The position numbers and the translations under genes are program-made. The notes under the pieces are model-generated. The model did not search any database. It had not been told where the DNA came from and worked only from the letters and a program-made list of their open reading frames with translations. DNA of 64,000 bases from Asparagopsis taxiformis (lineage: Eukaryota; Rhodophyta; Florideophyceae; Bonnemaisoniales; Bonnemaisoniaceae): positions 1 to 64,000 of the forward strand of contig JALQPE010001767.1 in the NCBI GenBank assembly GCA_030407315.1. Direction: 5' to 3'. Shown here in pieces: positions 5,039 through 64,000 of this stretch (positions are counted from its first letter, which is position 1; every line of letters begins with the position of its first letter).

Positions 5039-5069
5039 TTTGGGCAAAGAAAACTCAGTAAGCCACAAT

Positions 5070-17917: not shown

Positions 17918-20900
17918 TTAGTCGCCGCGCGCCGTGGACGCTGAGAGACGAAGTAATGGGAGTTTGAGTTTGAACTGCGCCGGTTTGAGCGTTTTCGTTA
18001 AGACATCAGCTGGGTTTGCATTCGAGGAAATATGAATAGGCTCAATGAGGCCGTTGTGTACTTGTTCTTTGAGCCAGTGATACTTCACGTCAATGTGCCG
18101 AGCATTAGGAGTAGGGTATGACGCTTTGGCAGTAGCAATTGCAGCCGCATTGTCGATGTAAAGAGGGATAGGTGTGCGGGGAAGATGTTGGATTTCAGTG
18201 AGAAAGTTGGCAACGGTTCGGAGTAGTTGAGTAGTATGAAATGTTGCAACATATTCAGCGGCATGAGTAGACGGCGATACCGTGCGTTGACGTTTGGACT
18301 GCCATGAGACAGGAGCGCCATTGTAAAAGATGAGGCTGCCTGTCGTGGAACGGCGTGTTGTGGGGCAGGAGGCGTGATCGGAATCTGAGTAGGCCACAAT
18401 AGAGGAGGTAAATTTCCTGGAGTATGTGATACCAACGTCGGATGTGCCGCGTAGATATCGTAACACGCGAAGGGCAGCTAACCAGTGGTGTGTGGTTGGA
18501 CAACGTGAGTATCGGCCCAGGAAGCCGACGATGTATGAGATATCGGGGCGAGTGCAATCGGCAAGGTATCGCAGAGAGCCGATGAGGCCAGTATAGTCAT
18601 ACAGGGATGTGTCGAGGGGTTTAGAGTCACGATTGTTCGGGGCCAGGAGCTCGGAAGCTATGGGAGAGGGTGACGGTTTGGCAGTGGTGTGTCTGTATTT
18701 TTCAAGCAAGGAACTGATGTATCCTGGTTGGGAGATTGTGATACCCGACTGAGATTGAGTCACTTTCCAGCCGAGGATGGCAGACACAGGGCCGAGGTCT
18801 TTAACCGAGTATTTGCAAAGAAGTGTGGATTTGGTGTGGGAAATGAGTGCAGTGGAGTTGGAAATGACCAGGAAGTCATCCACTGTTATGATGAGCAGGA
18901 TAAATAGCTCTGAGCGGGAAGGATCATGACGTATGAATGAGCAGGGATCAGAATGGAGCCGTTGGAAATCATGCGACTCCAGGAAGGTGGCAAGGCCTTC
19001 TGTGAAAATTCGGCAAGCCTGTTTGCTGCCATACATGTTCCCAGTGAGTTGGGCGACATGGTGAGGGTGGCGCAGAGAGCCATCAAACCTAGTGGGTTGC
19101 TGTACGAATATGGTGCGGTTATCGTTGAATTTTTCATGCAAGAAGGCGGCTTCGATGTCCCAATGAAGAGCATGGTAGGAGTTTGCTGCGGCAAGAGCAA
19201 GAGCCGAGCGGATGGTGTCTCGATGAGTGACGGGGCTGGAGAGATTGTACGGATCGTAATGAACGCCTGGGACTTGTTTATCACCGCGTATTGTGCAGCG
19301 AACTTTGCGACTGGTGGGAGTACCATCGCTGTTGCGCTTCAACTTGAAGACCGTGGTTAAAGGAAGTATTTTGGTTTGAGGAGGAACTTGAGTGCGTGGG
19401 ACGTATGTGAGGATGCCGCGGGATTCCAAGTTGTTGATCTCCGTATTCCAAGCCAGTTCCCATTCATGGGCGTCTGGTGCTTTGCGCGCTTGGGAGAGGT
19501 TTCTGGGTTCGGTGTGTATGGCGGGAAGACTTGGGTGGGCTGTGTTAGAGGAGGGGTCATGTGGATCAAAGTAGGTGCGGGTGGGATCCATACTTGGGTG
19601 GTATTCTGCAAAATCAGCAGCGCGGCATCGAGATACTGTGTTCTTGAGTGGATTGAAGACGAAATAATGCCGATAGTCTTGGCGGGCAAGATAGTACATG
19701 AGAATGGCTCGGGGCTCGAGTTTGTGATGGGGCGAACGATCGTGGACATAACCTTGAGTGCCAAAGGGCAGGAGAGTGGTGACGTCCGGTGTGGTGCCCA
19801 GCCAAAGTGCTGCCGGAAGTGACCCATGGGCAGTGTGGGGGGTGTGGTTGTACGCATCAGTAGCGTTGAGAAGTGCATAGTCAAAAAGGGAGTGAGGAAG
19901 ACCAGAAGTAAGGAGGCTGGCGCGGGTGGCATCTAATAGGGTGCGATTGATACGTTCTGCCAGAGAGTTCTCCTGTGGAGTGTGAGGAATAGAAGGATGT
20001 GTGCTGATGTCGAGCTGTGCATATAGCCTTTTTAGGTCTGAAGAGTAATATTCCCGAGCATTGTCTGACGTGATATGGCGAATGACGTGCGGTGTGTGTT
20101 GATGTGTGTGATGGATGTGGGTTTTGATGAAAGAAGCTGCAGCAGATTTGGTAGGGCTGCAGTGAACGGTTAAGTAGCGACTTCCTTCGTCAAGAAAGGT
20201 GGAGAAGTATTTGTTGCCGTCAAGGGAAGTGCAAGGGAAGGGACCGCATATGTCGGTATGGAGGTGAGAACCAACTGGAGCTGAGCGTGGATGTCGGCGG
20301 AATGGTGCAGCCTTCATTTTGCCGATTGCACAACCTGAACAAGATAGTTTAGGAGGGGAATGGAGTAGGGATCGCGGCATGTTGGGCACTAGGTGGTGTT
20401 TGGCCATATGATGAATTTTGGTGGGGTGTGCATGATTCAGTTTAAGATGCCAGTGATGGTAGTCGCGCAGGATGGAAGAGAAAGGAACTTTGATTTTGGG
20501 TTTGGTACGGGAGATTCTGACCCGTTCATTGCGATCCCGTTTGCGATGCCGTCGTGGTTTGTTGACAATGTGAGAGCGGGCAGATTTCTGGAGTGATCGT
20601 CTAGCAGGGGGTGTGGAGGAAAGACGTTTCATTTTAATTCCATCGCGTAGTTGTTTTCGAATGGCCAATTTGGAGGGGATGGTGCGTGCAGTATGTGCCT
20701 TGTGGAAGGAGAGTGACTTGCGAGGAGAAGCGGTGCTGGATAGAATGTATAGGCCTTTATCCTTGGTGGCAGTAGCTAGGACATTCCTGGGGGACGGGGG
20801 GGATGACGGTCTTGTGATGTATGCTTTGTCATGTTGGAAGACAACATCGTGAGACTTGGTCACTTGGGCAACTGAAAGGAGGTTGGAGTGAAGGTCTGGT

Positions 20901-22413
20901 CCGACGATAGCCGTATGAGAGGGAAGTAGGACGTTGTCATCAATAGGAATGTGTACATTGTCACGGTGGGTGATACGAGATGTGTGTCCATCGGCGGTGC
21001 GCGTGCGGGATGAGAATTTTTTCATTCCTGGTACAGGATGGATGAGATGCGACGGGTCAGCACCGGAATCTAAAATATAGGATGTACAGAGAGTGGTGCC
21101 ACAACGTACGTTGTCGTCTGGTTCATCGTCATCGGAGGTGTTTGGATCCTGATACGGGGAGTCATTGTACACGGGAGTAGAGAGGTTGGCCTTGCTCCGG
21201 GGTATCTTCTTGGTGGCTGTAGGATTTCGGGAGATGGAAGATAGGTATGAATTGCGCAAACGACATTCGGAGGTGGAGTGGTAGAAGGAGCCGTGCACAG
21301 TGCACCATGGTCCGGAATGACCAGGAGGGGGTTTGATGTGATTTTGCGGGTTAGTGCGCCGTGGCAAGGGTGATTTGCGGGTACGGTGGCGAGGTGAATG
21401 GCGGGGCTGTACGGAGCGAGGGAGAAGGTGGTGTGCTGCGCGCGTGACAGTAGCTGTACGCTTAGTGATCTCGTCGTGCCTGACCATCATAGCAACGATG
21501 TGGTCTTTGGATAAGGGGGAGCCAGGATGGAGAGCATTATGTGTTGCGATTGTCTGTAGAAACACTGTCCAGTCAGGATGGTGTTCCAGACCTTCAAGGA
21601 GAAATTTTACGGTAGTTTGTTCATTGGATATATCAGGGTAGTTAGCACGAATCATCAACGCGCGTATTTCGTTGTGTTGCGCCACGTAATCAGAGACAGT
21701 GAACGTGGAGTCCCATTTGATGCTTTGTGCTTTTCCGCGAAGGTTGTCATCAGTGTGTTCCGGATTTCGAGCGGTTAGGTGACTGTGGATCTTGGAGAAA
21801 AGAGTGTGCACGGAGCCAGAAAGTTCGGCATCCGTAAAGAGTGCCATGACTTCCGTGGACAGGGATGGGAGAACGAGGAGTTGAGCTTGTGAGTGTTTGT
21901 CACGATGCAACGCAGCTTCCTCCGGTATGCTAGTGTTCGGTACAGCTTGGAGGAGATAGTCGAGTACCTTGTGCATTCGCGCATGGTGTTCAATACTGAT
22001 TCGCCAAGGGATATAGTTGGAGAAGGTGAGGAGGGGAATGTCGACCTGATGTTGGGAAGGGAACGAAGGGGTAGACATCGGAACAGGCGAGATAATGGGC
22101 ACGGACGGCGTCGGGTGAGTGGGGAGTTGGCGGGAGTTGTCGTCGCCGGATGGTATAGTGTGGCGGGAGTTGTCGTCGCCGGATGGTAAAGTGTGGCGGG
22201 AGTTGTCGTCGCCGGATGGTAAAGTGTGGCGGAGTTGTCGTCGCCAGATGGTAAAGTGTGGCGGGAGTTGTCGTCGCCGGATGGTAAAGTGTGGCGGGAG
22301 TTGTCGTCGCCGGATGGTAAAGAGCCGGAAAAGGCAGATATGCTGTCAGGGGGATTGGTGATCTGAATGTGGATGACGGCGGGTGGGCTTTCGCAGTGTG
22401 CGTCTGGGTCCAT
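17918..22413 (-). pseudogene. Copia Gag-PR-INT-RT-RNase H polyprotein with one 5' frameshift
   Basis: A frame of about 1394 codons runs from about 22102 to 17918 but has no ATG at its head (a GTG lies at 22100-22102). The natural start is the ATG at 22411-22413, inside the primer site. The two frames differ by one base, and one unit of the 33-bp repeat near 22229-22261 is one G short, which accounts exactly for the shift. Domains in order: Gag with a C-x2-H-x4-H-x4-C knuckle (CTVHGSFYHSTSEC); protease DSGAD near 21070; integrase zinc motif (CSGCAIGK) and D,D,E core (HTDICGPF, TSDNAREY, NSLAERIN); RT with TVDD instead of YVDD near 18880; RNase H (SDSDHA). PR-INT-RT order is that of Ty1/copia. 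Apart from the lesion it looks intact. Confidence 0.9.
22126..22330 (-). repeat. 33-bp tandem repeat in copia Gag N-terminus
   Basis: Six units encoding the 11-residue repeat LPSGDDNSRHT on the minus strand. One unit lacks a G (GTGGCGGAGTTG for GTGGCGGGAGTTG), breaking the frame. Confidence 0.85.
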
Positions 22414-28855: not shown

Positions 28856-30098
28856 ATGACATCCTCCATCCTGCTCCTACTCCTCCTTGCCTCCATCGCA
28901 GCCTCTCGGGACCCCTGTCAACCCGGCTTCTTCCATTCCAGAACCGGCAGCTGCAAACCATGTCCCCCAGGCACATCCCAGCCGCAAGCCGGCCAGAGCG
29001 CATGCGTCCCATGCCACGATGCAGAGATAGCACCCAACGAAGGCAGCACCGCGTGCACCGCATGCGGCGTCAATGAAATCGCCATAGCATCAAAGACGAT
29101 CTGCGTATGTCAACTAGGAGCCGCTCGTAACAGACCCGATCAACATTGCCAACCCTGTCCAGCTGGAACATTCAACGATCGAGTCCGCAATGGCCAATTC
29201 TCAATCTGCACCTCCTGTGAACCTGCAACCTTCCAAGCACAATCTGGCCAGACTCAATGCAACGATTGTCCCCCCGGATCCTTCTCCAGATCCCGTGCAC
29301 AGAGATGTCGCACCTGTCCATCCGGCCAGGTCCCCATCGGACCCGACTGCGGTACATGTCCGCCCGGTCAGGAATACGACCCGTCCAGCTTTAGATGCCG
29401 TCCATGCGATCCGGGAACTTTCAAAGCGACAGACGGACAGAACGAATGCATATCTTGCCCACGCGGTGCATCATCCGACAGAGGCGCCGCTAAATGCACA
29501 ATCTGTCCACCGGGACAGACGCTGATCGGACGTGGTGAAAACGGCGCATGCGGTACTTGTCCCCCGGGCACATCCTTCGATCGGTTCCAACTTCGATGTA
29601 ACGATTGTCCGCGCGGAACCTTCCAGCCAGACAATACTATCCGTGGATCGTGTTTCACCTGCGCTGGAAATGCGTTTTTCTGGCGACGGCGCGTCGGAAT
29701 GCACGACATGTCCGCAGAATCAAGTATTGCTTCGGAGCGGAAATTGCGCGCCTTGTCCGGTCAACTTTTCCTACGATGAATTTGACATGCGGTGTAGACC
29801 ATGCGAGTTTAACGCTTTCAGCGCAGGTGGAGACGCTAGTTTCTGCAGGCTATGTCTGGTCGGCGCGTTTCTGAACGCATCGGGTGTGTGCGAACGCTGT
29901 CCTTCCGGACAAGCGGCGATGAGAAGTGGCGGATGCGGTACGTGTTCGGCTGGAAGGTTTTACGACTCATTCAGCGGCAGATGTCAGAGATGCTTCCCTA
30001 ATGAGATTCAGCCCGTTCCGAATATCGACAGATCCTGCACACTTTGTCCGTCTGGAATGATGCCGAATCGCGCACGCACTCAATGCGTGCCGGTGTAG
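28856..30098 (+). pseudogene. Secreted Cys-rich repeat protein (GCC2/GCC3 class), one frameshift
   Basis: ATG at 28856 opens a signal peptide (MTSSILLLLLLASIAASR). About 15 modules of the form CxxCPPGT..C follow, as in GCC2/GCC3 or ephrin-receptor-like repeats, so the protein is probably extracellular. The frame runs to 29779 but loses the repeat pattern after CFTCAGNAF. The pattern resumes in the next frame (SGDGASECTTCPQ) and ends ARTQCVPV at 30098. The switch falls on a run of five T (29675-29679); one T fewer would give a continuous protein of about 413 aa. It is a paralogue of the minus-strand gene at 12026-13742, with similar module spacing and C-terminus. It is called a pseudogene only because of the break; a sequence error in the T-run is equally likely. 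Confidence 0.8.
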
Positions 30099-38987: not shown

Positions 38988-39287
38988 CTAGCTGTCGGAA
39001 AATTGTTCATCCTCTTCTTCCTCGCTATAACTAGAGTCTCCTTGCACAGGCTCTATCGGCAGCCGCGGAGTTGAACTTCTCCTGATGTTCTCTTCAGCAA
39101 TTGAGGGATTTTTCTTCCTCACCCGAAGGAGTCCGAGCTGCCCTGTCTTCGGCCTACGATCTTTCTTGACCGGGACGGGAACAACTGTCTTGTGGCGAAC
39201 ATTGACAGGTGCCGGTTGACTTTGCCTGGCAGACCGGCGCGGAGCATTGGGGATTACTTCTTCTTCGAATCCCAACCGCCTGATGAA
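38988..39287 (-). pseudogene. C-terminal part of dioxygenase-like gene, left of the transposon
   Basis: The frame is read from 39287 leftwards: F-I-R-R-L-G-F-E-E-E, then a basic tail (RRSARQSQPAP, RKKNPSIAEEN) and an acidic end (SSYSEEEEDEQFSDS) to the stop at 38988. It has no start of its own. It continues in frame from the part at 50624-51364 once the 11.3-kb element and one TGAA copy are removed. The tail may be a nuclear or binding extension; no domain is recognised in it. Confidence 0.75.
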
Positions 39288-41260
39288 AACAGTATATTCG
39301 TGTAGATGAGAATAAGATTAAAACATGAGAATGAAATTCTTAGTTGGAAATATTGGAATATTTTTATAAATTAAATGAGATTGCTGCACGGAAAAATAAT
39401 TCCATAGTGATTGAATGCCGCTTCCAGCCGTAGATGTACATTCATATTCACTGCATTTGGAACAGATCAGGCAGTAGCGCAGCTGCTTGTTATTGCACCA
39501 TAACACAATCTTCCTATGGGAACCAATCTCTAGTCAGTAGTCTAGTGCTCCCGCAATCTCATAACTAACTAGAGCCACGATCTGAATCTTTCAATTTGCT
39601 ACCAGTCATTATCTCAATGCATTTATTCTCACTTGTTTCCTTTACCACAACAGCATTCACACTTCATGATTATAAATAGAACCAAACCTGAGCTCATGAA
39701 ACTTTGGCAAAGCATGAGCAGCATAGTCGATTATCACTGTACCGTGAGGGTCTCGTCGCAGACCCAAAATGATGCAGATGAAGACACAAATTAGACCACA
39801 TGAAAACCTGTAGAACATGAACGTCATCATATGAGCATGCATGCTTCGTAGATATAGACAAACAGGTATGACATCTCAGAAACAGCGCATGTCGCAACAA
39901 GGTTGCATACATCAGCATGGCATGGATAAGTATGGGCATGATGGAGAAAATTTGCGCTGGAGCTGAAGCTAGAGGATCGTCCGAAGCGTGAAGAAGCGTC
40001 AAACTCTCCGCGAACCTGCAGCGTAGCTCTGATGCTTCCATATAATGAGGCTAAAAAGGGCCCATTTTCAATGATAGTGTGTGAGGGAGCTGTTATATTT
40101 GGTCACCAAGCTGGTGGGTGAGTCGGGACTAACATCTTGTGCGATAAAGAGCACTTTCCAGTGCCTTCGTTGAGATTCAAGAGCGATGTTCAGCCGTATA
40201 GTTGGACACTGATGTGGCAAATGGAGTGACATCGGTAATGGTGGAGCTCCGTAAATTATTTGCGCGGCATGGTGGCAGCTAAATCTGTACTTGTGGCTCC
40301 GAAAGAGGCGCAGGACGCACAAGAACTGCAGTGGAAAGGCTGGTTGTATAATATGGGCACGAAAACGAAGCAGTGATCCATATGCTGCCCAGCGGGCAGT
40401 AGGTGTGCTATTGTGGGGCTCATTTCGGAACGTTATCAAATTCCTCCTTGAGCAGCATGAGCAGTGTTGTAGAAGCAGTATAGCTAGCCACTGGTGTAGA
40501 TGGATGTATCAAGCTCGTTCGAGCATGATGGATCAGATGATATGACACCATAAGGTGGAGATGCTGCGTGGTGTGGTGGCAGCTAGAACAGATTATGTCA
40601 GTATGGGAACGACGACGAAGCAGTGTACCACAAAATGCATATTGTGTAACAAGCACATTGTATACAGCATGCTGATTTGGTGCACCGCGCACGGATGATC
40701 GTTGTGGAATGAAGGTACATTGCGCTAGATAAAGAGTGAGGCGCACAATAGGAGAGGAACTGCTGTTGGAAGTACCAGGACGTGGGCTGCTCGCACGGGA
40801 TATATGGGCGTGATATGCAGGCAGCGATTCTGTCCGCGTTCCGGGCAGTAGGAATGCTGCAGCATAATTGCATACGTGATGAGGCGCGCAGTGATTTTCT
40901 TCATGGTATGAAGACAAATTGCGCTAGATGAAGAGTGAGGCGGAAAACAGGAGAGAAGCAGTTATTCGAAGCGCGGGGGTTCTGGCGATCTGGATGGGTT
41001 ACATGGGCGCGGTGTGCGGAAGGTAGGAAGGTAAGTCGAACCGAGCTAGTACGTCAACGGCTAGGCCGTCAAAATACAGCAGTAGTTCAATGGTCAAACC
41101 TTACGAATTTCTGGAAGCCAACATTTTTCTGTCAAGACAGACTGCTATTGGTCATTCACATAAACTGTAATCTTCGTAAATTATGACCAATTGATGGTTT
41201 GCAGCGGCAATGGCAGCGTATGCTTTTTGAGCAGCTTCAATGATATTCAAACCAAGTGGC
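39288..41260 (+). repeat. Left terminal inverted repeat, 1,973 bp
   Basis: Reverse complement of 48650-50622. It contains internal subrepeats: a 24-mer at 40352-40375 and 40602-40625 (21 of 24 identical, TATGGG.ACGA..ACGAAGCAGTG) and a roughly 105-bp unit at 40719-40826 and 40918-41025. Open frames inside are mirrored in both arms and show no coding features. Confidence 0.95.
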
Positions 41261-41873
41261 GTCAGCTGCTACACGTGGTCTCAGATTCTATCATTTGCAG
41301 TATGCCGGTCATCCAGGAGAGAACAGCTGGTAAAAAGAGTAGAGGCACCTCATGAACTGTTGATATCAGATACGATCGTTGAAGAAATTTCAAAGTTGTA
41401 TCGATTATCAAAACGGCGACGATGACCTCCGTGGGTTCTGTCAGTCTAGAACCCTCGAAGATTCAGCAATGCTTCAATGCTGCGAACACATATTGGAGTC
41501 AACTTTCATTATGAAAGGCAAACTACAAACCTGATTTGTCCCATAACGCTTTCCAAGTTTGTCGAAAGAGCAGATGTCATTGCAGATAACTACGACATTT
41601 CACAGATGGGCGGAGGATTCAATGACATGTCCTGGAGACACCTATCTGCATTTAATGCATTCAGAGGCCTGTTCAGCAGTATTTCCATGACCATATCTAT
41701 CATTCTGTCGGATTTGGACATTGAAATAGATTCTAAGCGCTTCTCTATCAATCTAAATGTCGACTAGTCTGCCAAAACACCAACGAAATATCGCTGTTTA
41801 ATTCTAATGAGTCGAGGCTGAAGTTGAGTGTGCTAGGAGATAGCAGAACATTTGTTTCAGCTTCGATACTATC
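41261..41873. other. Element interior between left repeat and methyltransferase gene
   Basis: A plus frame at 41477-41767 (96 codons) reads partly like protein (SKFVERADVIADNYDISQMG) but has no recognised motif. It may be a gene remnant. Confidence 0.35.
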
Positions 41874-44423
41874 CTATACTTCATCACTCTCAGAACCTTT
41901 GGATGCTTCAATATCTTCTCCATCACATTGACTATTTTCACCATCACTCGGGTCATCTTCGGTACTTTCGGTTCTGCTCTGTGTCTGATCTCCATCATCC
42001 TGTCGGTAACGCTTCCTCTTGGTTGACAATTCTGCTGTGATATGTTCAAGTATAGAAGATATCGTTTCAGATGTCTGCCTCACGTTACCATGGGTAGCGG
42101 GGTTTCTGGGTAATTTATCGTTCAGAATGTGCGCGCAAATCCTTTTCAGTCTTTGTAGTGAGAGGTTGTAGCAATGAGGGTCTTTCTCCACAATTATGCA
42201 TTTTCTTGAGGTAAAAGCGCATGAAATCGCCGTCGTCATGGTACCCGCGTAGCCGTCGAAGACCAATCCTCTGGGAGGGCAGAACGTGGCTAGTATTTCC
42301 GTCAGAGCGACGGTACTCTTTTCTTCAATACGTACCGGTGACTTCCCTACGCAGAGTTTTTTCGGAACCTTGACATTGTCCAATACACAGAATTTGCGAG
42401 AGTGATTACACTTAAGTACTGAGTATGAACTGAACAGATCGAGTTTGAATTGATTTGATTTCCCACCTGGTAGATATCCCATCACTGCAGGCTCTACACA
42501 GTTCTGAGGAGCGAAGCTACTCTTGTTCCTGGTCAACGTCGCTGAATCCTTCACAAGTAATAATGGATAACTTATTACCACCATTCCGGCCTTGCGAAGG
42601 GCACTCCACCAAGAAGGCAGAAGTTGAAAGGAAGAAAATATGATGAAATAACAACCTGGCTTCAGTGTACGACGACAGAATCGACTAAAAGATTCTATTT
42701 CCTCTTCATCGATATAGTCATTGTAGCCTCTCCCAGTAGAGGATTGATTGCATGAACTCAAAGAATAGGGAGGATCAGTTAGAATGAAATCAAACTTGTT
42801 GCATTCTCCACTACTAGTGTTCCGAACAGACAGCTCATACTGCTGCCAAGTCATCTGGTAATGCCTTATGCCAGCACGAACCAAGGACTCTTCTCCTTCC
42901 ATATTGCCTTCTCCCGATGGATTTCCAGTAGACAACAGACGAGTACAATGTTCACTTTTCTCAGGTGAATCCCCTGAAGTCTCTCGTTCTTGGTGATCGG
43001 TAGCATGGATGTTCTCAGTACCAGATGACTCAAACGGTACAACTTCTGGAGGTTCATCACTATTTGCAGAATCTAGAATGTTAAGAACTGTGTCAGCTTC
43101 TTGTCTGCACAAAGATCCTGCCTGCAACGCTGAGGGAGCTTCCTCTGAATCAAATGAAGCTTTGAACTTCGCATGCAATAGAAAAGAGTCATCAGGGAAC
43201 TTGGAACGATGAAGTTCAAGCAATGGAGGTAGTATGTCTTGCTCGTTTCCTCTATTTGAGTCAATCGCGGCATCGAACAATGTTGTGTGAAGCAAATTTC
43301 CCTTCGCTGCTTTCATTTCCTCTGGCCACAGATCTGTTTGTAAGTACCGCTCAAATTTAATGGCCTCTAGACGCGCTGCAACTGCTGCTGCATATTGCTT
43401 CTCGACGATTGCAAAGGAGACCGGCTTGTAGTTATTCTGAGAAGCATAATACTTCACTCGCTTCAGGGTGTTGATGGAGTCGGTGATATCTTTGCACTTC
43501 ATGAAGTTAGTGGCCTGCTTCAGAGATGAAGAACTAATGATGTCCTTATATATACGACAATCAGGAGTGCCGCGACATCGCCTGTGTGGTGGTAATTGGT
43601 TTTGAAGGGTTTGAGCCAGAGCTGGGTGCTCCGAGTTCAAAATTTCTCCCAGTTCTTCAATGACCTCCTCTGAAAGCCGCGAGGCTGTGCGGGCAAGCTG
43701 TGTCATTGTTGACACCGCCCAATTCTGCCCAACCATTACCTTCTTAGCAATTTGCACTGCACTTGGAGAAGAACCATGTTCTGCAATGTACTTGTTGATT
43801 TCGTCTTTCAAATAACGTAAAGTGTCGTAATCAGTTTGTACGACCACATACTCTTCTTTTTGCTTTTCATTAACATTGCGCGCAAATGATCGCAGCTCAC
43901 CGAGATCCGTTGACTTTATGACCATCACAGTCCAAGAGAAACCGGACCATCGCCGAGGCTCTTCTCTGATCAACTCTTCAATTGCCCTTAATCTGTGAGC
44001 ACCATCCACAACTCCATACCAAACTGGTTGGCTACCAACGATCTTGGAAGCTTCGTTTTCAGATTCTTCATTAGATAATCCTCTTCCTTTCATCACAACT
44101 TTCCAGTACTCAAGAGGATAGGAGTTGTATGCACCGTCCAGCATGACGACAGTTGGAATCACCCCACCAGATGTAACACCACCATTCCCCTCAATATTAC
44201 CATGGAATGATTCCTTCAGACGTTTGATACCAGACGCTGACAATTTGCGAACTCTTGTAAATGGGATGCAAGATTTTGGGTCTACTGTAGTTACTGATGC
44301 ATCCTTGACCAGTTCTCTGAAGGCCTCTTTTACGACCTCCATACCCGATGGATCAATTGATAAATCCTCCGCATGAAGATTCTGCTTCCTTTTCTTTGTC
44401 ACTGATCTTGTTTTCCGACTCAT
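41874..44423 (-). CDS. ParB-like domain fused to beta-class DNA aminomethyltransferase (N6A/N4C)
   Basis: 849 aa from the ATG at 44421-44423 (MSRKTRSVTKKRK); the frame is open a further 37 codons upstream but without ATG. The N-terminus is basic and nuclear-signal-like. Residues about 60-220 resemble a ParB/sulfiredoxin-like domain, with the signature WYGVVDGAHRLRAIEEL near 133-150. A helix-rich region (SPSAVQIAKKVMVG) follows. The methyltransferase part has motif IV FDFILTDPPYS near 545-555 and the SAM-binding motif I LVFDGYAGTMTTA near 717-730. IV before I, with the recognition region between, is the permuted order of beta-class DNA aminomethyltransferases. The tail is acidic. ParB-methyltransferase fusions are known from phages and plasmids; here the gene rides in a eukaryotic DNA element. 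Likely substrate: adenine-N6 or cytosine-N4 in DNA (inference). Confidence 0.85.
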   Translation of the reverse strand: MSRKTRSVTKKRKQNLHAEDLSIDPSGMEVVKEAFRELVKDASVTTVDPKSCIPFTRVRKLSASGIKRLKESFHGNIEGNGGVTSGGVIPTVVMLDGAYNSYPLEYWKVVMKGRGLSNEESENEASKIVGSQPVWYGVVDGAHRLRAIEELIREEPRRWSGFSWTVMVIKSTDLGELRSFARNVNEKQKEEYVVVQTDYDTLRYLKDEINKYIAEHGSSPSAVQIAKKVMVGQNWAVSTMTQLARTASRLSEEVIEELGEILNSEHPALAQTLQNQLPPHRRCRGTPDCRIYKDIISSSSLKQATNFMKCKDITDSINTLKRVKYYASQNNYKPVSFAIVEKQYAAAVAARLEAIKFERYLQTDLWPEEMKAAKGNLLHTTLFDAAIDSNRGNEQDILPPLLELHRSKFPDDSFLLHAKFKASFDSEEAPSALQAGSLCRQEADTVLNILDSANSDEPPEVVPFESSGTENIHATDHQERETSGDSPEKSEHCTRLLSTGNPSGEGNMEGEESLVRAGIRHYQMTWQQYELSVRNTSSGECNKFDFILTDPPYSLSSCNQSSTGRGYNDYIDEEEIESFSRFCRRTLKPGCYFIIFSSFQLLPSWWSALRKAGMVVISYPLLLVKDSATLTRNKSSFAPQNCVEPAVMGYLPGGKSNQFKLDLFSSYSVLKCNHSRKFCVLDNVKVPKKLCVGKSPVRIEEKSTVALTEILATFCPPRGLVFDGYAGTMTTAISCAFTSRKCIIVEKDPHCYNLSLQRLKRICAHILNDKLPRNPATHGNVRQTSETISSILEHITAELSTKRKRYRQDDGDQTQSRTESTEDDPSDGENSQCDGEDIEASKGSESDEV

Positions 44424-46128
44424 AGCTTGTTTCGAGGTGTTCTGCAGAGCGGTAGTTCTGCCAAAATGCGGGAAAGCGGATTTAGTAAGCTCAGGAATGT
44501 ATTGGTATTCCAGTTGAAGACCAAGTGTAAACAAATCAGCTCAAGCTTTTGTTGGGGTGCAAGCAATAATATATGACCGTTCGTGGAAGAGATCTTCTAA
44601 AACGCTCAAGTCTCGCACAGAAAAAGGTCAACTCGGAAACCGTGATGTAATTTAACCTTCAAAAGTTTTTGGTTCAGCCTAGTAATTTTTCCTATTCAGC
44701 AAGCGGCTGTTCACTCAGAATGCGTTGAACAGCACAGGTGAAATTATCGTAACGTACAATGAATGTCACATATCACGGCTTTCCGAACTGACATATACGC
44801 CATTGATGATTTCAAGTATGTCTCTAGAATTTGCTTGCCCTTGAAAATTCACTGAATGGAATGTGGTAGAGGACGAGGTGAGCTGCACTGCAAACTTTCT
44901 CACATGACAAATGATACTCAATACTGAAGGAGATCTCTATAGAGCTATGTGCCAATACTCATATTGCACCAATAGCTCATAGAAAGAAGCATAATGAGTT
45001 GTTGTTCCAATGCAATGAAACAATTCTCGTCTGAACATACCGCGAAAGAGCATTTGATCAGTCATCATATCATCATTGAAAAAGGTTCATGGATGCGAAA
45101 TAGAGCTCACATATGGCCCATTATTGATATTGCCAGTTTGTCTGACAGTTTTGCTGAACGTACACGGAAGTACCAGCGTACACTGGTGACGGTTCTGTCC
45201 AGACAGAATTGAGAATGTACGGCACGCGATGATATAGATGTGCACATCTGTGAAAGTGCAGTATTAATACACCCCACTTGCTGAAATCACCTGGATAAAA
45301 CACGTTAGATTTAGATTAGTCCCGAGGGATACTTCCAGGAATGATGTCTGAGCATATGACGTATGGTGTCATTATGATGGCGACCATTGAATCTTCGAAT
45401 GAGTTCATTATCATACGCAGATGAACAACGTGGCATGATACTGTCGAACAAGTTTTGAAATTTCCCCTTGCCAGGATTTTTTTAATATAAGGCGGATAGG
45501 TATGATTCCAAGTCTATACGTGTCATGAGTACAGCGATGGGCATGAATATGGGCATGAATAATAATCCATCAAGGCTCGACCGAGCCTGTCGGTTCATAG
45601 CCGAGATTTGAGCTTCCTGAATACTAGAACGTCTTTTTGATGTTCCATGCGGCATGCTAAACTGTAAAACTAGCGATCAATACGTTTCGAAAGTAGGTAT
45701 GGCTGCGCAAAATCATCTTTCACACTCAATTGAGCTGAAATTTGGAATACGCTTATTCATGTTTGTCTATCACTAGTCAGTTGAAATTAGAAAAGACTAT
45801 GGAAGCTGAGTGTGATGAAATACTCTCGAACCCTCGTTGCTCCGTGACAACTTGTTAGATTGAAGATGAATTTGGTATACATAGTGCCGCATCTGGACAT
45901 GCCTGTAGTGTATCCAGTAGAGCTGTTCATTTATTGTACCTCTAGTGTATCATAGGAATGGAGAACATTCTTGTATTGCACTTCGTCCTTCTACAGGATA
46001 CTCCCTAACAGAAATCCGGACTGCTTCAATCATGGCCGGAAGATAAATTCCGATCATCTTCCAGGCACCAACTCAAATGCAACTGTCAACAAGAGCGTTC
46101 AGAGTCTATTAACCACTATAAATCACGA
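44424..46128. other. Divergent intergenic region of the 11.3-kb element
   Basis: 1.7 kb between the two divergent genes, expected to hold both promoters. A short plus frame at 44994-45212 is not supported. No strong repeat or motif was noticed. Confidence 0.5.
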
Positions 46129-48327
46129 ATGGAGCACCTTATGGACGAGGAAGTCCCGAAACGGCGGTACAAATTTACCTTAAGAACCAGGAGAGAACAT
46201 ACGGCTCCCAGTATGCTCTACAAACGTCGCCAAGAGATGGCAACTGTCAGAGACATGAGTCACCTAAAATGTTGCAAACATCAATGCATTCTGGAAGCCG
46301 ATCAAAGATATCTACATGCTCAGAAGCAGCGCATCTTATCAATGTCTTGTGAAGAAAGGAAACAAAGTCTAACAGAAATGCTGCGAAGCAACTTTTTCTG
46401 GTTCAACTCTGATCGAGTATGCACAGAGTTCCTGGTAAAAGCATTTGGATTTTCTAGGCAGCTGCAAGGGTCAGTGAAGCGGCTTCCGTCTGCGTCGGCG
46501 TCATCTGCTATTAAGAATCCTCCCAGGTTGCGAAGAGGGCGCAATCACTGTGACACAATATTATGCTTTCTCAGTCACACTGCTCAGTACAATGCTGAAA
46601 GGATGCCAGACTGCAGCGAAGTCCATCTTCCTTTTTTTCGTAAGCTTGACGCCTATATATCATTCAGGGAGCACTTTGCAGAAGTTGATAGCAGCGGTTC
46701 ACCGGTTGCTCCACCATCTTATACGTACTTTCTTCGCGTTTGGCGTGAAAACTATCCCCATATCAAGGTCAGGAAGGTGCGGAGATTTACGAAGTGTGAG
46801 GAATGTGAACTCCTCCGTTCGAAACTGGAGAAAGCAGGCATGAGCGAGTCCAAGTCAGCACCAATACTTCTGAAGTACAAAGAGCACCATAAGTTCATTG
46901 CTAGAGAGAGACAAGAGTACTACAGCAACAGATTGAGGGCTGCTCACAATCCTTCTCTAGTTTGCTCCATGATAATTGATGGAGCAGACCAATCTGCCTT
47001 CGGTTTGCCCCATTTTGTCATCAGAACGAAGGCAGAAAGGGGTCATTCTATGAAGATTAAGCTAATTGGATTGATCGATCATGGAGCTATTAACCGATCT
47101 CACCTTTTTTTAATGACCGAGGAGTTTGAGACTGGTTCGAATCACGTAGTGGAAGCTCTACATCGTGCTCTCACTGTCAAATCCCAAACCGGGAGTCTTC
47201 CTGACACCCTATTCTTGCAGATGGATAACTGCACTCGGGAGAACAAAAATAGATTCACCCTATCCTATGTTGAATTCCTTGTTTCAATGGGTGTGTTCCT
47301 GGAGGCAACCGTTGCATTCCTACCAATTGGCCACACCCATGAGGATATCGATCAGTTGTTTTCGAGAACAGCAACTCACTTACGAATTCGCGATGCTGTC
47401 ACGATCGAGGACTTGGCAAAAGAGCTTCGTGAATCATACACGCCAACTCCTAATGTTTCCATAATGCGAAACATAGCGAACTTCTCTGGACTTCTCACCA
47501 AAAGTGGATGCGTATATAATAGAACAGCTCCGTTTTCGCAGCTCAGATATTTTCGGTTCACCAGAGCCATTCAAGCCGCCAACGTTCACAGCCCTTTCCG
47601 GACTCATCTAGCCGTCAAAATAGACTGTTCTGAAGAATGGAAACCATTCCCGGGAAACTCTCCAGGAAAAGGATTTCTCAAAGGCTGCCCAGATCTAAGT
47701 GAAACCCCCGATACGAAAATTGTATGTCCACCAAACATTCAAGATGTCACCAAGCGTATACAGTCTGTTGAATCAGTTTTGTCCAACTATTCAAAGATTA
47801 AATCTTTGTTAGCGCTGAGAGACCAAGTATACCGTACTCGAGAAGAAAAGTTCCATTGGGATATTCAGCGATGCCCAGAACTAAATGGAAGGCACAGATC
47901 GATCTCAGCCCAGGATGATGCAGAACTTAGCGGTGTGGCCGATGATGAATTGAGCCCATCGGAAAGCATTTTATGCGACTACAGCTATAGCCCAAACGAG
48001 TTTGTTGCAGTGAAGACGGGAGAACCCTCCTGCCCATTCTGGATAGGAAAAATACTCCGTGTGTACAAAAACGAGAGCGATATTGTTTCTGATCTTGACC
48101 TTCTATGGTATCAGAAGTACTGCACAAAGAGAAGTCGCTATAATAGTCAGGATATCTACACTGGACAGTACAGTGTAGCAGTCATGCAAGACCGGAACGG
48201 AAACGAGACTCAATGGACTGACAAAGTTTCAGTCCAAGCTGTTGTTGTTAAATTCAACAGTTTAAATGCAGACAGGCGACTTAGTGTTTCTGTGAGGAAA
48301 CAAATAAAAGAGTGTCTCCGAACCTAG
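46129..48327 (+). CDS. RNase H-like (DUF7869-type) probable transposase
   Basis: 732 aa, intronless. The N-terminal part has paired-Cys motifs (LKCCKHQC; RRFTKCEECELLRSKL), probable zinc sites typical of this protein group. The core looks like an RNase H fold with acidic residues in the expected places: D284 in MIIDGADQS, D366 in LQMDNCTRENKN, and E405/D406 in PIGHTHEDIDQLFS. The G-H-T-H-E-D-I-D-Q signature is the hallmark of proteins annotated, from memory, as DUF7869 in many eukaryotes with large transposon loads. As the only DDE-like protein inside an element with inverted repeats and a target duplication, it is the best candidate transposase; that role is inferred. The C-terminal third is conserved in the paralogue at 63077-64000. 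Confidence 0.8.
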   Translation: MEHLMDEEVPKRRYKFTLRTRREHTAPSMLYKRRQEMATVRDMSHLKCCKHQCILEADQRYLHAQKQRILSMSCEERKQSLTEMLRSNFFWFNSDRVCTEFLVKAFGFSRQLQGSVKRLPSASASSAIKNPPRLRRGRNHCDTILCFLSHTAQYNAERMPDCSEVHLPFFRKLDAYISFREHFAEVDSSGSPVAPPSYTYFLRVWRENYPHIKVRKVRRFTKCEECELLRSKLEKAGMSESKSAPILLKYKEHHKFIARERQEYYSNRLRAAHNPSLVCSMIIDGADQSAFGLPHFVIRTKAERGHSMKIKLIGLIDHGAINRSHLFLMTEEFETGSNHVVEALHRALTVKSQTGSLPDTLFLQMDNCTRENKNRFTLSYVEFLVSMGVFLEATVAFLPIGHTHEDIDQLFSRTATHLRIRDAVTIEDLAKELRESYTPTPNVSIMRNIANFSGLLTKSGCVYNRTAPFSQLRYFRFTRAIQAANVHSPFRTHLAVKIDCSEEWKPFPGNSPGKGFLKGCPDLSETPDTKIVCPPNIQDVTKRIQSVESVLSNYSKIKSLLALRDQVYRTREEKFHWDIQRCPELNGRHRSISAQDDAELSGVADDELSPSESILCDYSYSPNEFVAVKTGEPSCPFWIGKILRVYKNESDIVSDLDLLWYQKYCTKRSRYNSQDIYTGQYSVAVMQDRNGNETQWTDKVSVQAVVVKFNSLNADRRLSVSVRKQIKECLRT

Positions 48328-48649
48328 CGAGGGAAACTCCTGATTGATCTATGACCTGAACGCATTGGAAAAGCCTACGCTCCATCATCCTTTCATCTCG
48401 TATCCAAATGGAAACAACACAATATCGAAGCTAAAACGTAGCTTCTGCTTTACCCTAGCACACTCAAATTACGCTGAGGTACGAGGCATTTGGTGCATAT
48501 CGAACTGTTCTCCAGTGAATTTTAGCCTCATTTTTTCCTTCCTGCTCTTCGTCCACCCATTTGAAAATTCCTGGTATCAGCGATTAGATGTGGCTGCAAT
48601 CATTACCGCTGCACCATAGTGTATGAACCCATCAGAAAAAATTTCTATT
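48328..48649. other. Element interior between transposase gene and right repeat
   Basis: About 320 bp, expected to hold the 3' UTR. No other feature seen. Confidence 0.5.
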
Positions 48650-50622
48650 GCCACGTGGTTTGAATATCATTGAAGCTGCTCAAAAAGCATACGCTGCCAT
48701 TGCCGCTGCAAACCATCAATTGGTCATAATTTACGAAGATTACAGTTTATGTGAATGACCAATAGCAGTCTGTCTTGACAGAAAAATGTTGGCTTCCAGA
48801 AATTCGTAAGGTTTGACCATTGAACTACTGCTGTATTTTGACGGCCTAGCCGTTGACGTACTAGCTCGGTTCGACTTACCTTCCTACCTTCCGCACACCG
48901 CGCCCATGTAACCCATCCAGATCGCCAGAACCCCCGCGCTTCGAATAACTGCTTCTCTCCTGTTTTCCGCCTCACTCTTCATCTAGCGCAATTTGTCTTC
49001 ATACCATGAAGAAAATCACTGCGCGCCTCATCACGTATGCAATTATGCTGCAGCATTCCTACTGCCCGGAACGCGGACAGAATCGCTGCCTGCATATCAC
49101 GCCCATATATCCCGTGCGAGCAGCCCACGTCCTGGTACTTCCAACAGCAGTTCCTCTCCTATTGTGCGCCTCACTCTTTATCTAGCGCAATGTACCTTCA
49201 TTCCACAACGATCATCCGTGCGCGGTGCACCAAATCAGCATGCTGTATACAATGTGCTTGTTACACAATATGCATTTTGTGGTACACTGCTTCGTCGTCG
49301 TTCCCATACTGACATAATCTGTTCTAGCTGCCACCACACCACGCAGCATCTCCACCTTATGGTGTCATATCATCTGATCCATCATGCTCGAACGAGCTTG
49401 ATACATCCATCTACACCAGTGGCTAGCTATACTGCTTCTACAACACTGCTCATGCTGCTCAAGGAGGAATTTGATAACGTTCCGAAATGAGCCCCACAAT
49501 AGCACACCTACTGCCCGCTGGGCAGCATATGGATCACTGCTTCGTTTTCGTGCCCATATTATACAACCAGCCTTTCCACTGCAGTTCTTGTGCGTCCTGC
49601 GCCTCTTTCGGAGCCACAAGTACAGATTTAGCTGCCACCATGCCGCGCAAATAATTTACGGAGCTCCACCATTACCGATGTCACTCCATTTGCCACATCA
49701 GTGTCCAACTATACGGCTGAACATCGCTCTTGAATCTCAACGAAGGCACTGGAAAGTGCTCTTTATCGCACAAGATGTTAGTCCCGACTCACCCACCAGC
49801 TTGGTGACCAAATATAACAGCTCCCTCACACACTATCATTGAAAATGGGCCCTTTTTAGCCTCATTATATGGAAGCATCAGAGCTACGCTGCAGGTTCGC
49901 GGAGAGTTTGACGCTTCTTCACGCTTCGGACGATCCTCTAGCTTCAGCTCCAGCGCAAATTTTCTCCATCATGCCCATACTTATCCATGCCATGCTGATG
50001 TATGCAACCTTGTTGCGACATGCGCTGTTTCTGAGATGTCATACCTGTTTGTCTATATCTACGAAGCATGCATGCTCATATGATGACGTTCATGTTCTAC
50101 AGGTTTTCATGTGGTCTAATTTGTGTCTTCATCTGCATCATTTTGGGTCTGCGACGAGACCCTCACGGTACAGTGATAATCGACTATGCTGCTCATGCTT
50201 TGCCAAAGTTTCATGAGCTCAGGTTTGGTTCTATTTATAATCATGAAGTGTGAATGCTGTTGTGGTAAAGGAAACAAGTGAGAATAAATGCATTGAGATA
50301 ATGACTGGTAGCAAATTGAAAGATTCAGATCGTGGCTCTAGTTAGTTATGAGATTGCGGGAGCACTAGACTACTGACTAGAGATTGGTTCCCATAGGAAG
50401 ATTGTGTTATGGTGCAATAACAAGCAGCTGCGCTACTGCCTGATCTGTTCCAAATGCAGTGAATATGAATGTACATCTACGGCTGGAAGCGGCATTCAAT
50501 CACTATGGAATTATTTTTCCGTGCAGCAATCTCATTTAATTTATAAAAATATTCCAATATTTCCAACTAAGAATTTCATTCTCATGTTTTAATCTTATTC
50601 TCATCTACACGAATATACTGTT
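48650..50622 (-). repeat. Right terminal inverted repeat, 1,973 bp
   Basis: Reverse complement of 39288-41260. It ends GAATATACTGTT at 50622 and is followed by TGAA. Confidence 0.95.
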
Positions 50623-51364
50623 TGAAACCAAACGAAACATTGTCGGGAATCGGATACGACGCATTCCTGAAATACGTGTGATACCTCGTTGTCGTGTGTG
50701 ACACAACTCTGTCGACATGCCCTGCCCCGGCATGTTGTACATGGCCGTGACCGATGAAGACTGAACGTGGCGGAACGATTACCTCCTTCAGCTTCATCGT
50801 CTTGGCGTACATATCTAATTCCAGCGCTTTGGAAAAGACGTACTTGTGGGACCCTGGACACACCCAGATAGGGAATGGGTCATCTCCGTTGGCAATAACA
50901 AAGTAACCCGGAAGTTGATCTTTACGGTCGCGAGGAGGAACAGGGAAATCATTGTGTGGGACCTGCCGAGGACACCCTTTTCCCGTTATCAAAAACCGTC
51001 CCCCAGATGCCGGCATGACAAGTTTTTCTCCCGGCAAGCCGCAATCTTCCAGCCCTATCAACCGGACAAGGATTCCCAACCACACATCCAGCAGGGCTCG
51101 CCGCGTCACAAACTTGAACCGGTCGATATGCGTCTCGTCGTTCTCGGCATAGTCAACCAGGCAGTGGCGCGTAGACGTGAAGCGAGCCCTCCCCTCATTC
51201 CGGTTCTTCTCATCTGTATCATCATCCCCTGTATTGACAATGGGACTCCACAGCTGCCGGTTTCCAGGGTCCTTGTGCACCTTCTCCCCCTCCCACCCCA
51301 GTAAGAAAAGTTGACGATCCGCTGACCTCCTGCAGATGTACGCTTTTTGATGTACGCATGACAT
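50623..51364 (-). pseudogene. 2-oxoglutarate/Fe(II) dioxygenase-like (PHYH-type) gene, disrupted by the transposon
   Basis: From ATG at 51364 about 247 codons lead to the insertion point; the frame then runs 13 codons into the transposon end before a stop at 50582. Features of a double-stranded beta-helix dioxygenase: HND (H-x-D, in CPRQVPHNDFPVPP), WVCPGSHKYVF, and a distal His in HGHVQHAGAGH followed by Arg. These resemble phytanoyl-CoA hydroxylase-like enzymes, which hydroxylate small molecules using 2-oxoglutarate and Fe(II). Substrate unknown. The remaining 99 codons lie on the other side of the element (38988-39287). The true 5' end may lie farther upstream: a second open frame at about 51300-51430 reads well (YPEYIESHPFECHAYIKK), and a G-run at 51286-51290 could hide a frameshift. 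Confidence 0.7.
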
Positions 51365-63076: not shown

Positions 63077-64000
63077 TTACTTCGGAATAGACGCCAGGCC
63101 TGACCTGATCTCTTTCTCTACTCCAGCTCTTATCATCTTGTTTGTTAGTGAAGGGAACTCTGCAATGACGGTGTCAACCGAAATATGTCCCTTCCAAGCC
63201 ACTGTTGTTCTCCCCTTGCGAAGCATGGCAGGCCTATACTTACCTGACCATGCGTCTCTTCCATCGTAGACCTCGTACCACCGAACACACAGCTGACAAA
63301 TAACCCCTTCGTTGTTTTTCTTACAACTCATAATTTGTCCTAGCCAGAACGGCATCTCAGTAGTACAGTCTTCTCCATTTACAGCCACGAAGCGATTCAC
63401 CGAGTAGGGCAAGTCTGATAGTGGTATGCAATCTGCAGTCGACATGAGTTCCTCCTCTATCGGCACGACGTTCCGATTCCCTTTTCGATACATGCCATTC
63501 ATCTCGAAACATTCGGTGAGGTTCGAATGAAAAGAATCTTCCCTTTCCTCATAAACCTGTCGTAGAAGCTCATGTATCTGATCCATTTTAGAATTGTTAT
63601 TGACCCTGCTCTCTTCCGAACGAAAACGGAGCAGGACCTCATGTCGATCTGGAGGAGAACGTATGATATTACTCGGTGTTCGTTTCAGTTCAGGAGGCTT
63701 AACCAGGAAACTATTCAGCCCCGGAGTGAGAACTGGGAGAGGCTTCCAGTTGTCTTCACAAAATATCTTAACATCGCATGCAGTTCTGTAGAAGTCATAA
63801 CTTTTTCCTGTATCTTGGGATCGGTGAAACCTGAAGTATCTGAATTTTGAGAAAGCATGCACTTTTCCAACCGAATTCTCACTCCGGCAGAGAACGGAGA
63901 AGTTTGCCACGTGCAACATACGAGAGACAGAGGGTTCCGGAGTATAGGACACTCTGAGTTGTTCAACTAAATCTTCCATAGTGACGGCGTTGTGGGAACG
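63077..64000 (-). CDS. Second DUF7869-type transposase, C-terminal part (runs off window)
   Basis: The frame is open to the window edge (R-S-H-N-A-V-T before MEDLVEQL) and stops at 63077. It aligns along its whole length with the C-terminal third of the 732-aa protein at 46129-48327: AVTxEDLxxxLRxSYTPxPxVS, then FRYFRFHRSQ against LRYFRFTRAI, WKPLP against WKPFP, VNRFVAVNGE against PNEFVAVKTG, and PFWLGQI against PFWIGKI. The catalytic region lies beyond the window. Divergence is substantial, so this is another family or an old copy. No inverted repeat of its own was recognised. Confidence 0.8.
   Translation of the reverse strand, partial: RSHNAVTMEDLVEQLRVSYTPEPSVSRMLHVANFSVLCRSENSVGKVHAFSKFRYFRFHRSQDTGKSYDFYRTACDVKIFCEDNWKPLPVLTPGLNSFLVKPPELKRTPSNIIRSPPDRHEVLLRFRSEESRVNNNSKMDQIHELLRQVYEEREDSFHSNLTECFEMNGMYRKGNRNVVPIEEELMSTADCIPLSDLPYSVNRFVAVNGEDCTTEMPFWLGQIMSCKKNNEGVICQLCVRWYEVYDGRDAWSGKYRPAMLRKGRTTVAWKGHISVDTVIAEFPSLTNKMIRAGVEKEIRSGLASIPK

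Follow-up and report, generated by a model that had tools for sequence, protein, structure and literature searches.

The element that occupies positions 39288-50622 of the window (the whole stretch of 64,000 nucleotides of Asparagopsis taxiformis DNA analysed here) is 11,335 bp long and is probably a Sola1-like DNA transposon that, judged from its sequence, has been active very recently and would move by the mechanism proposed below. It carries two long open genes on opposite strands, as the first-pass annotation had stated, which lie between long inverted arms and are flanked by a short target site duplication. Its features are as follows.

39284..39287, left copy of the target site duplication, TGAA, present as a single TGAA in empty sites
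39288..41260, + strand, left inverted terminal arm of 1,973 bp, starting AACAGTATATTCG (inverted-repeat comparison)
41874..44534, - strand, gene for a ParB-like and beta-type N6/N4 DNA methyltransferase protein, an open frame of 886 codons (Pfam N6_N4_Mtase, 3.5e-9)
44535..46128, inter-gene region of 1.6 kb with the divergent genes on either side
46129..48327, + strand, gene for a DUF7869 protein of 732 aa, a putative DD[D/E] transposase (Pfam DUF7869, 6.9e-48)
48650..50622, - strand, right inverted terminal arm of 1,973 bp, ending CTGTT (inverted-repeat comparison)
50623..50626, right copy of the target site duplication, TGAA, present as a single TGAA in empty sites
50627..51364, - strand, remains of a repeated gene interrupted by the element (the empty copy L052 has an open frame of 484 aa)

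The inverted repeat was called with arms at 39287-41260 and 48650-50623 (1,974 nt), and once trimmed to the element each arm is 1,973 bp long, the two disagreeing at a single base next to the inner edge (arm position 1,968). The earlier description of equal arms with a single mismatch, and of TGAA on both sides, has thereby been found again, the TGAA lying directly outside both ends. An inverted repeat so long and so nearly perfect is not a product of chance, and arms of this kind are the terminal inverted repeats of a cut-and-paste DNA transposon (class II, TIR order). Neither gene contains a reverse transcriptase domain according to Pfam. The region between the divergent genes presumably holds their promoters.

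Copies were sought across the 141 Mb genome, where the 201-bp terminus of the window element (W) occurs 15 times on 10 contigs. Three further copies with two ends (A, B and E) have been found, which also have long arms and are flanked by duplications of CTTC, ACCA and CGTG. All three of the related flank copies that were read show the exact empty target site, with TGAA present once. Element B is nested in element A, and the two differ at 1 of 11,065 positions, which indicates very recent movement. Arms within one element are identical or nearly so, with a difference of 0.8-1.5% between elements. The proposal of a recent DNA transposon, and the expectation that a genome search would recover the same ends with 4-bp duplications and both genes, are thus borne out, and it is close to certain that the window element is a mobile DNA transposon. 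Assemblers and polishers have difficulty with nearly identical arms separated by about 7.4 kb, and one might accordingly suspect an assembly artefact behind the inverted repeat itself or behind the sameness of its arms. This explanation is barely credible and has been rejected, as five elements, each at its own site, have arms and a 4-bp duplication, exact empty sites exist, and the sides are unequal in W, A and B: about 0.6 kb of arm-like sequence is missing on the right in A and B, and about 0.1 kb on the left in W. Among the four two-ended copies of the window family both genes are open only in W, so that this copy may be autonomous; the methyltransferase gene of A is split by B, B has one stop in its DUF7869 gene, and E has stops in both genes as well as an insert.

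The DUF7869 protein is, from its sequence characters, very probably the transposase of the element. The acidic residues D284, D366, D406 and D408, candidates for a DD[D/E] site of the RNase H-like kind that the first-pass annotation named, are kept in an alignment across five lineages. The Pfam entry DUF7869 carries no transposase annotation, and a literature search on that name gave no match. No NCBIfam family was matched by the protein, its profile gave one chance-level match (0.15) against the sequences of solved structures, and a profile scan of viral contigs gave 10 pattern matches with 0 confirmed. The protein matched no transposase model in a Pfam search with a limit of E 10, in which HMMER filters remove most matches above about 0.1. 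Pfam is not known to hold a Sola model, and the missing match therefore says little. An excess of synonymous change has been detected in both genes, with an omega of 0.38 for the DUF7869 gene and 0.35 for the methyltransferase gene, values that rest on 26 and 20 differences.

The conserved start of the methyltransferase is probably the ATG near 44423. Its protein shows the motif order of the beta class of N6/N4 enzymes, with DPPY at 587-590 followed by DGYAG at 760-764 (protein numbering), and an alignment across four lineages shows DGxHR, DPPY and this glycine motif to be conserved. The profile of the protein matches the adenine methyltransferase 5hek (5.1e-10) and, more weakly, N4-cytosine enzymes (0.0077 to 0.091); since the latter are matched too, the modified base may be either adenine (N6) or cytosine (N4). 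Four NCBIfam families were matched, all below their cut-offs. The N-terminal part is provisionally labelled ParB-like solely from an invariant DGxHR pattern, a candidate for the box-II type arginine motif, and a weak match to DndB (0.003), which lies below the cut-off.

The recurrence of the two-gene layout, suggested earlier from a single copy, extends widely through the genome. Of the 61 DUF7869 genes among the matches listed, 47 have the gene of a related methyltransferase immediately upstream, within 4 kb, in divergent (38 pairs) or tandem orientation (9 pairs), and the matched stretches of the divergent pairs lie 1.58-2.44 kb apart. A partner was not found for the other 14 listed genes, one of which is that of A, split by B. 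The pairing reaches down to about 40% identity, and the identities of the two proteins to those of the window fall together (r = 0.97, from 12 pairs that were hand-picked and include several close copies of each other, and so are not independent). Because so many of the listed genes are paired, and down to such low identity, the DUF7869 protein and the methyltransferase are a conserved pair, and the methyltransferase, introduced in the first-pass annotation as cargo, is better described as a conserved partner. That it might be a passenger acquired by chance and unrelated to transposition has some precedent, given that accessory genes, mostly of unassigned function, are reported for many giant algal transposon families in the accessible part of one study (PMC12477816); moreover, E has inserted though both of its genes are broken, an insertion which may predate the damage. 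This reading is nonetheless improbable and has been rejected on the conserved pairing, with codivergence over lineages and the retention of the catalytic motifs also standing against it, together with the low omega of the methyltransferase gene, few as the differences behind it are.

The target site duplication is of fixed length, being 4 bp at five of the six loci where both ends were seen (TGAA, CTTC, ACCA, CGTG and ATTA). At the remaining locus, C2034/C2035 (counted as one), the arms are 912 bp and no duplication is present. The ATTA duplication belongs to a lineage whose DUF7869 protein is only 41-43% identical to that of the window, and AACA ends with 4-bp duplications are common to these two lineages. 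Two further lineages (C2035 and C2185) also have long arms; the word GAGTGAGGCGGA occurs in the arms of the window element and of C2035 and is absent from that of C2185. A shared protein-binding word in the arms was sought and rejected, as the 12-letter words in common numbered 2, within the range of shuffled sequences (maximum 3). The duplication of Sola1 is likewise 4 bp, the length found in the window element and its relatives.

Membership of the EnSpm/CACTA (Chapaev) group is suggested by one lineage end, which reads AACACTAC, with CACTA starting two bases in. Elements of this group have CACTA-type outermost ends and a duplication of 2-3 bp (4 bp in Chapaev), whereas the window element ends in AACAG, its 4-bp duplication directly abuts the AACA, and this is the only end that agrees with the empty site. 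With CACTA taken as the end, C2185 shows no duplication, and no EnSpm transposase model was matched in the Pfam search under the same filters. Giant EnSpm elements have been reported in red algae and resemble the window element as large DNA transposons with extra genes, but differ in their ends and duplication, as far as the available text describes them (PMC12477816). This assignment is very improbable, and for the window element it is effectively refuted by its ends.

The first-pass annotation matched the layout to no superfamily that it could name with confidence and suggested that it may define a new group of large eukaryotic DNA transposons. A pair of the same kind has, however, been published for Sola1-1_Ec32 from the brown alga Ectocarpus, an algal DNA transposon in which a gene for a ParB-like and N4C/N6A methyltransferase protein lies opposite the transposase, and the accessible part of that report mentions similar proteins for transposons of green and red algae (PMC12477816). 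The window element shares the opposite-strand partner, with its ParB part assigned by motif only, and differs in length (11.3 kb, compared with 21.5 kb) and in the size of the second protein (about 850-886 aa, compared with 1104 aa); the comparison covers the layout and the sizes as published (PMC12477816). As far as that text goes, the partner is a feature of one published Sola1 element and does not define the family. Sola2 elements, as partly described, are also large and have a 4-bp duplication, but have terminal repeats of 12-21 bp, unlike the 0.9-2.1-kb arms found here, and AT-rich rather than mixed-sequence duplications (PMC3627910). Phage fusions of a ParB-CTPase with N6_N4_Mtase combine the same pair of domains, within the same family (PF01555), though these are phage proteins for which the accessible text mentions no transposase partner, and the ParB part here is assigned by motif (PMC12704722). 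Gene pairs like this one are on record for other algae, so that the window element seems to belong to a known kind rather than a wholly new one. Its tentative placing in the Sola1 group, by resemblance to a described layout, is somewhat favoured.

It is also conceivable, though unlikely, that the DUF7869 transposase and an obligatory ParB-methyltransferase constitute a separate, unnamed superfamily outside Sola1; in the brown-algal case, a different superfamily would then have acquired this same gene. The lack of a matching Pfam transposase model, the frequency of pairing among the listed genes and the ends and duplications common to two distant lineages are in line with this view. The same two-strand layout in Sola1-1_Ec32 (PMC12477816) and the 4-bp duplications of Sola-type elements such as Sola2 (PMC3627910), both taken from partial descriptions, argue against it, as does the limited weight of a missing Pfam match.

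In the proposed mechanism for a Sola1-like element, the DUF7869 protein would bind the AACA...TGTT ends, excise the element and insert it, by DD[D/E] chemistry, at a target with a 4-bp stagger. The methyltransferase protein would load on the DNA of the element through its ParB-like part, and its methyltransferase part would place N6-methyladenine on it, N4-methylcytosine being less likely. Such methylation could keep the genes of the element expressed or time transposition after replication, by analogy with Dam, which times the transposition of IS10 after replication. The case that the methyltransferase marks the element's own DNA is about evenly balanced. Gene conversion between the arms at about the time of transposition would probably be what keeps the long arms identical. 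A broader reading is also unlikely: a two-component transposition system in which the methyltransferase, through the marks that it sets on the long arms, is required for movement or licenses it, with DUF7869 forming its own superfamily characterised by AACA...TGTT ends, 4-bp duplications and arms actively kept identical.

Eukaryotic transposons with a DNA methyltransferase of bacterial type have been described only briefly in the accessible literature. In this single genome the two genes stay paired in dozens of copies and across several deep lineages, and the window family is young enough for two of its copies to be separated by one base in 11 kb. The use that a transposon makes of its own 6mA/4mC enzyme thus becomes a testable question, and DUF7869, a domain of unknown function, gains a likely role as a transposase.

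The window element (W), a DNA transposon, had been described in the first-pass annotation as having inverted repeats, flanking TGAA and two divergent genes, and this structure has been confirmed. The features concerned are:

Window 39288-50622: element W, 11,335 bp, TGAA immediately flanking both ends
Window 41874-44534, minus strand: methyltransferase gene of W, 886-codon frame
Window 46129-48327, plus strand: DUF7869 gene of W, 732-aa product
Window 50623-51364: remains of an open frame interrupted by W; counterpart at 1211-2662 of the stretch L052

The long inverted terminal repeats (arms) measure 1,973 bp each, with a single mismatch at arm position 1,968; the outermost sequence is AACAGTATATTCG at the start and its reverse complement at the end, and the divergent genes lie 1.6 kb apart. 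When the outer 201 bp of W were searched against the same genome (141.5 Mb, 3,156 contigs), 15 matches on 10 contigs were detected. Eight belong to four two-ended elements, namely W, A and B (both on contig C1745) and E (C2216), and seven are single ends, where those on C2995 and C333 share a common flank and may represent one locus, and that on C2217 comprises just 40 bp at the contig edge. The target site duplications of A and B are CTTC and ACCA, B being nested within the methyltransferase gene of A. Element E spans 16,634 bp with the duplication CGTG, carries stops in both genes and has a 4.9-kb insert in its DUF7869 gene; direct repeats of 488 bp, 92% identical to each other, flank this insert, and its frames look Copia-like by eye. 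One stop occurs in the DUF7869 gene of B, and among the four elements both genes are open in W alone. The further copies sought in the first-pass annotation have been recovered: A, B and E share the ends of W, each holds a DUF7869 and a methyltransferase gene, and each is flanked by a duplication of 4 bp. By coordinates, C2382:103269-120488 suggests another nesting, of one DUF7869/methyltransferase pair within a second.

The flank of W is itself repeated sequence, with at least 40 matches (40 scored of 1,038 first-look candidates), and an exact, uninterrupted 40-base junction with a single TGAA is present in all three flank copies read (L052, L053 and L054). L052 is 97.3% identical to the W flanks over 845 bp across the junction, and L053 matches 2.1 kb of them in two pieces at 91-95%. 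The insertion interrupted a 484-aa open frame, which gave no match in a Pfam scan at E 1. Since a DUF7869 gene of the lineage found on contig C2416 has its 3' end next to this frame in L052, the insertion of W may have been into or close to a relative; against this, just about 175 bp of the left flank of W match L052.

Within the first 1,580 arm columns, the paired arms are identical in W, A and B and show two differences in E, whereas comparison of W, A and E with each other gives 12-23 substitutions per arm (0.8-1.5%). In 27 of 29 variable columns the two arms agree in all three elements, and in each of the other two the variant is confined to a single arm of E, whose genes are broken. Over their full length, mismatches number 1 in 1,973 for W, 1 in 1,591 for both A and B, and 3 in 2,083 for E, those of W, A and B sitting at the inner edge. 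Because arms diverging independently should be as different within an element as between elements, the arms have either been homogenised or been smoothed during assembly. In W, A and B the left and right sides are unequal, which counts against simple smoothing. Homogenisation would take place in living elements, for instance by gene conversion during gap or hairpin repair. Comparison of the DUF7869 gene in W and A gives 11 synonymous and 15 nonsynonymous changes (omega 0.38), and that of the methyltransferase gene in W and B gives 9 and 11 (omega 0.35). These values are weak evidence of constraint on both genes, in agreement with the conserved motifs at about 33-50% identity.

The association of the two genes extends well beyond this family. 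A genome search with DUF7869 gave at least 61 scored matches from 960 candidates, and three methyltransferase searches gave at least 76, 54 and 65 (51 of 1,785, 52 of 3,270 and 51 of 2,993 candidates scored). For pairing, the first contributed its rows down to C128, those left out being further pieces of genes already entered; the second, nine places adjoining a listed DUF7869 gene; and the third, twelve pieces yielding a partner not yet entered. A divergent upstream methyltransferase accompanies 38 of the 61 DUF7869 genes (matched stretches 1.58-2.44 kb apart) and a tandem one accompanies nine (0.57-0.63 kb away); the first search alone paired 28. The other 14, among them A, whose partner sits beyond the nested B, have no partner among the matches listed; as every list is a lower bound, their true number may be smaller. 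In 12 hand-picked pairs, the identities of both proteins to those of W drop together (r = 0.97); the value is indicative, since the averages for split matches were taken by eye and some of the pairs closely copy one another.

Four other lineages, chosen by their DUF7869 gene alone, were read (C2035/C2034, C1826, C2185 and C2416), and both genes are present in each, in tandem in C2416. The C2185 end reads AACACTAC, with the duplication ATTA (right flank just 5 bp). C2035/C2034, one locus on two contigs, has 912-bp arms and no duplication at its ends. In the stretches read of C1826 and C2416 no outer ends were located. In the second of the three methyltransferase searches, that with the C2416 type, nearly all of the 54 or more matches are 97-100% identical. 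A second, divergent C2416-type DUF7869 gene lies at window 63077-63979 (minus strand), and a methyltransferase gene occurs on the same strand just past the window (C1645:65854-68487, minus).

The W DUF7869 product matches its Pfam family at 6.9e-48; among the named transposase models of Pfam none matched (E limit 10, with filters dropping most hits above about 0.1). In 5.8 billion proteins searched, 287 relatives were detected; in an alignment of the query with 62 of the 120 listed, every row has D284 and D408, and at least 90% retain D366 and D406. All four are invariant across five lineages of this genome, where E405 varies, and the triad D284-D366-D406/D408 would be the likely active site. 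Residues about 617-710, at the C-terminus, show an FVAVK...FWIG...WY pattern that by eye looks like a BAH-like chromatin-reading module. A Chromo frame (Pfam 5.9e-9) at 3832-4524 of the stretch L042 (C2416:33001-43000), lies on the same strand as a C2416-type DUF7869 gene, directly downstream of it, and may be part of some larger element.

The 886-codon frame of W matches Pfam N6_N4_Mtase at 3.5e-9; for its relatives from C2035, C2185 and C2416 the E values against this family range from 1.9e-11 to 1.2e-16. Among solved structures, a six-row profile aligns with the adenine methyltransferase 5hek at 5.1e-10 over nearly its whole chain, and the weaker hits to N4-cytosine enzymes lie at 0.0077 to 0.091. 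The DPPY motif stands before the glycine motif, an order of beta type, and DPPY instead of SPPY favours N6-adenine. In the N-terminal half, an invariant DGxHR within WYGxxDGxHR is similar to the ParB/DndB box, in which an arginine is conserved. Pfam detects DndB alone here, below threshold (0.003), and the ParB label is therefore based on this motif together with how PMC12477816 describes the Ectocarpus protein. ParB-CTPase is often fused to PF01555 in phages, according to PMC12704722. Outside this genome, at least two relatives were found with a single sequence and at least three with the profile, in a search that needs common 5-residue words and scored 7,999 candidates, so that rarity is not inferable.

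The genes read are long, open and without introns. Thirteen phycobilisome matches occur in the genome, nine strong and two weaker on C469 and two elsewhere; given those eleven, C469 probably represents the host's plastid genome. A red alga would be the most probable host. Elsewhere in the window are:

Window 17918-22102 and 179-5068: polyproteins in long open frames, of Copia and of Gypsy (chromodomain) type
Window 11968-13742 and 28856-29779: cysteine-rich ephrin-receptor-like repeat proteins (Pfam matches at 28856-29779 and 11968-12930); the frame 12852-13742 may belong with 11968-12930 to one broken gene

W would probably be placed with Sola1. A literature search on the name DUF7869 found no paper. 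The earlier suggestion of a recent transposon is upheld by the single difference between A and B in 11,065 positions; the suggestion that the layout may define a new group receives no such support, as the ParB-methyltransferase transposon idea and the layout appear already for Ectocarpus in PMC12477816 (2025). Green and red algal sources cited in that text may already contain any of the present additions. Relative to the available portions of the published accounts, these additions are the depth of the gene pairing, the ends and their duplications, an age close to zero and arms that vary in concert.
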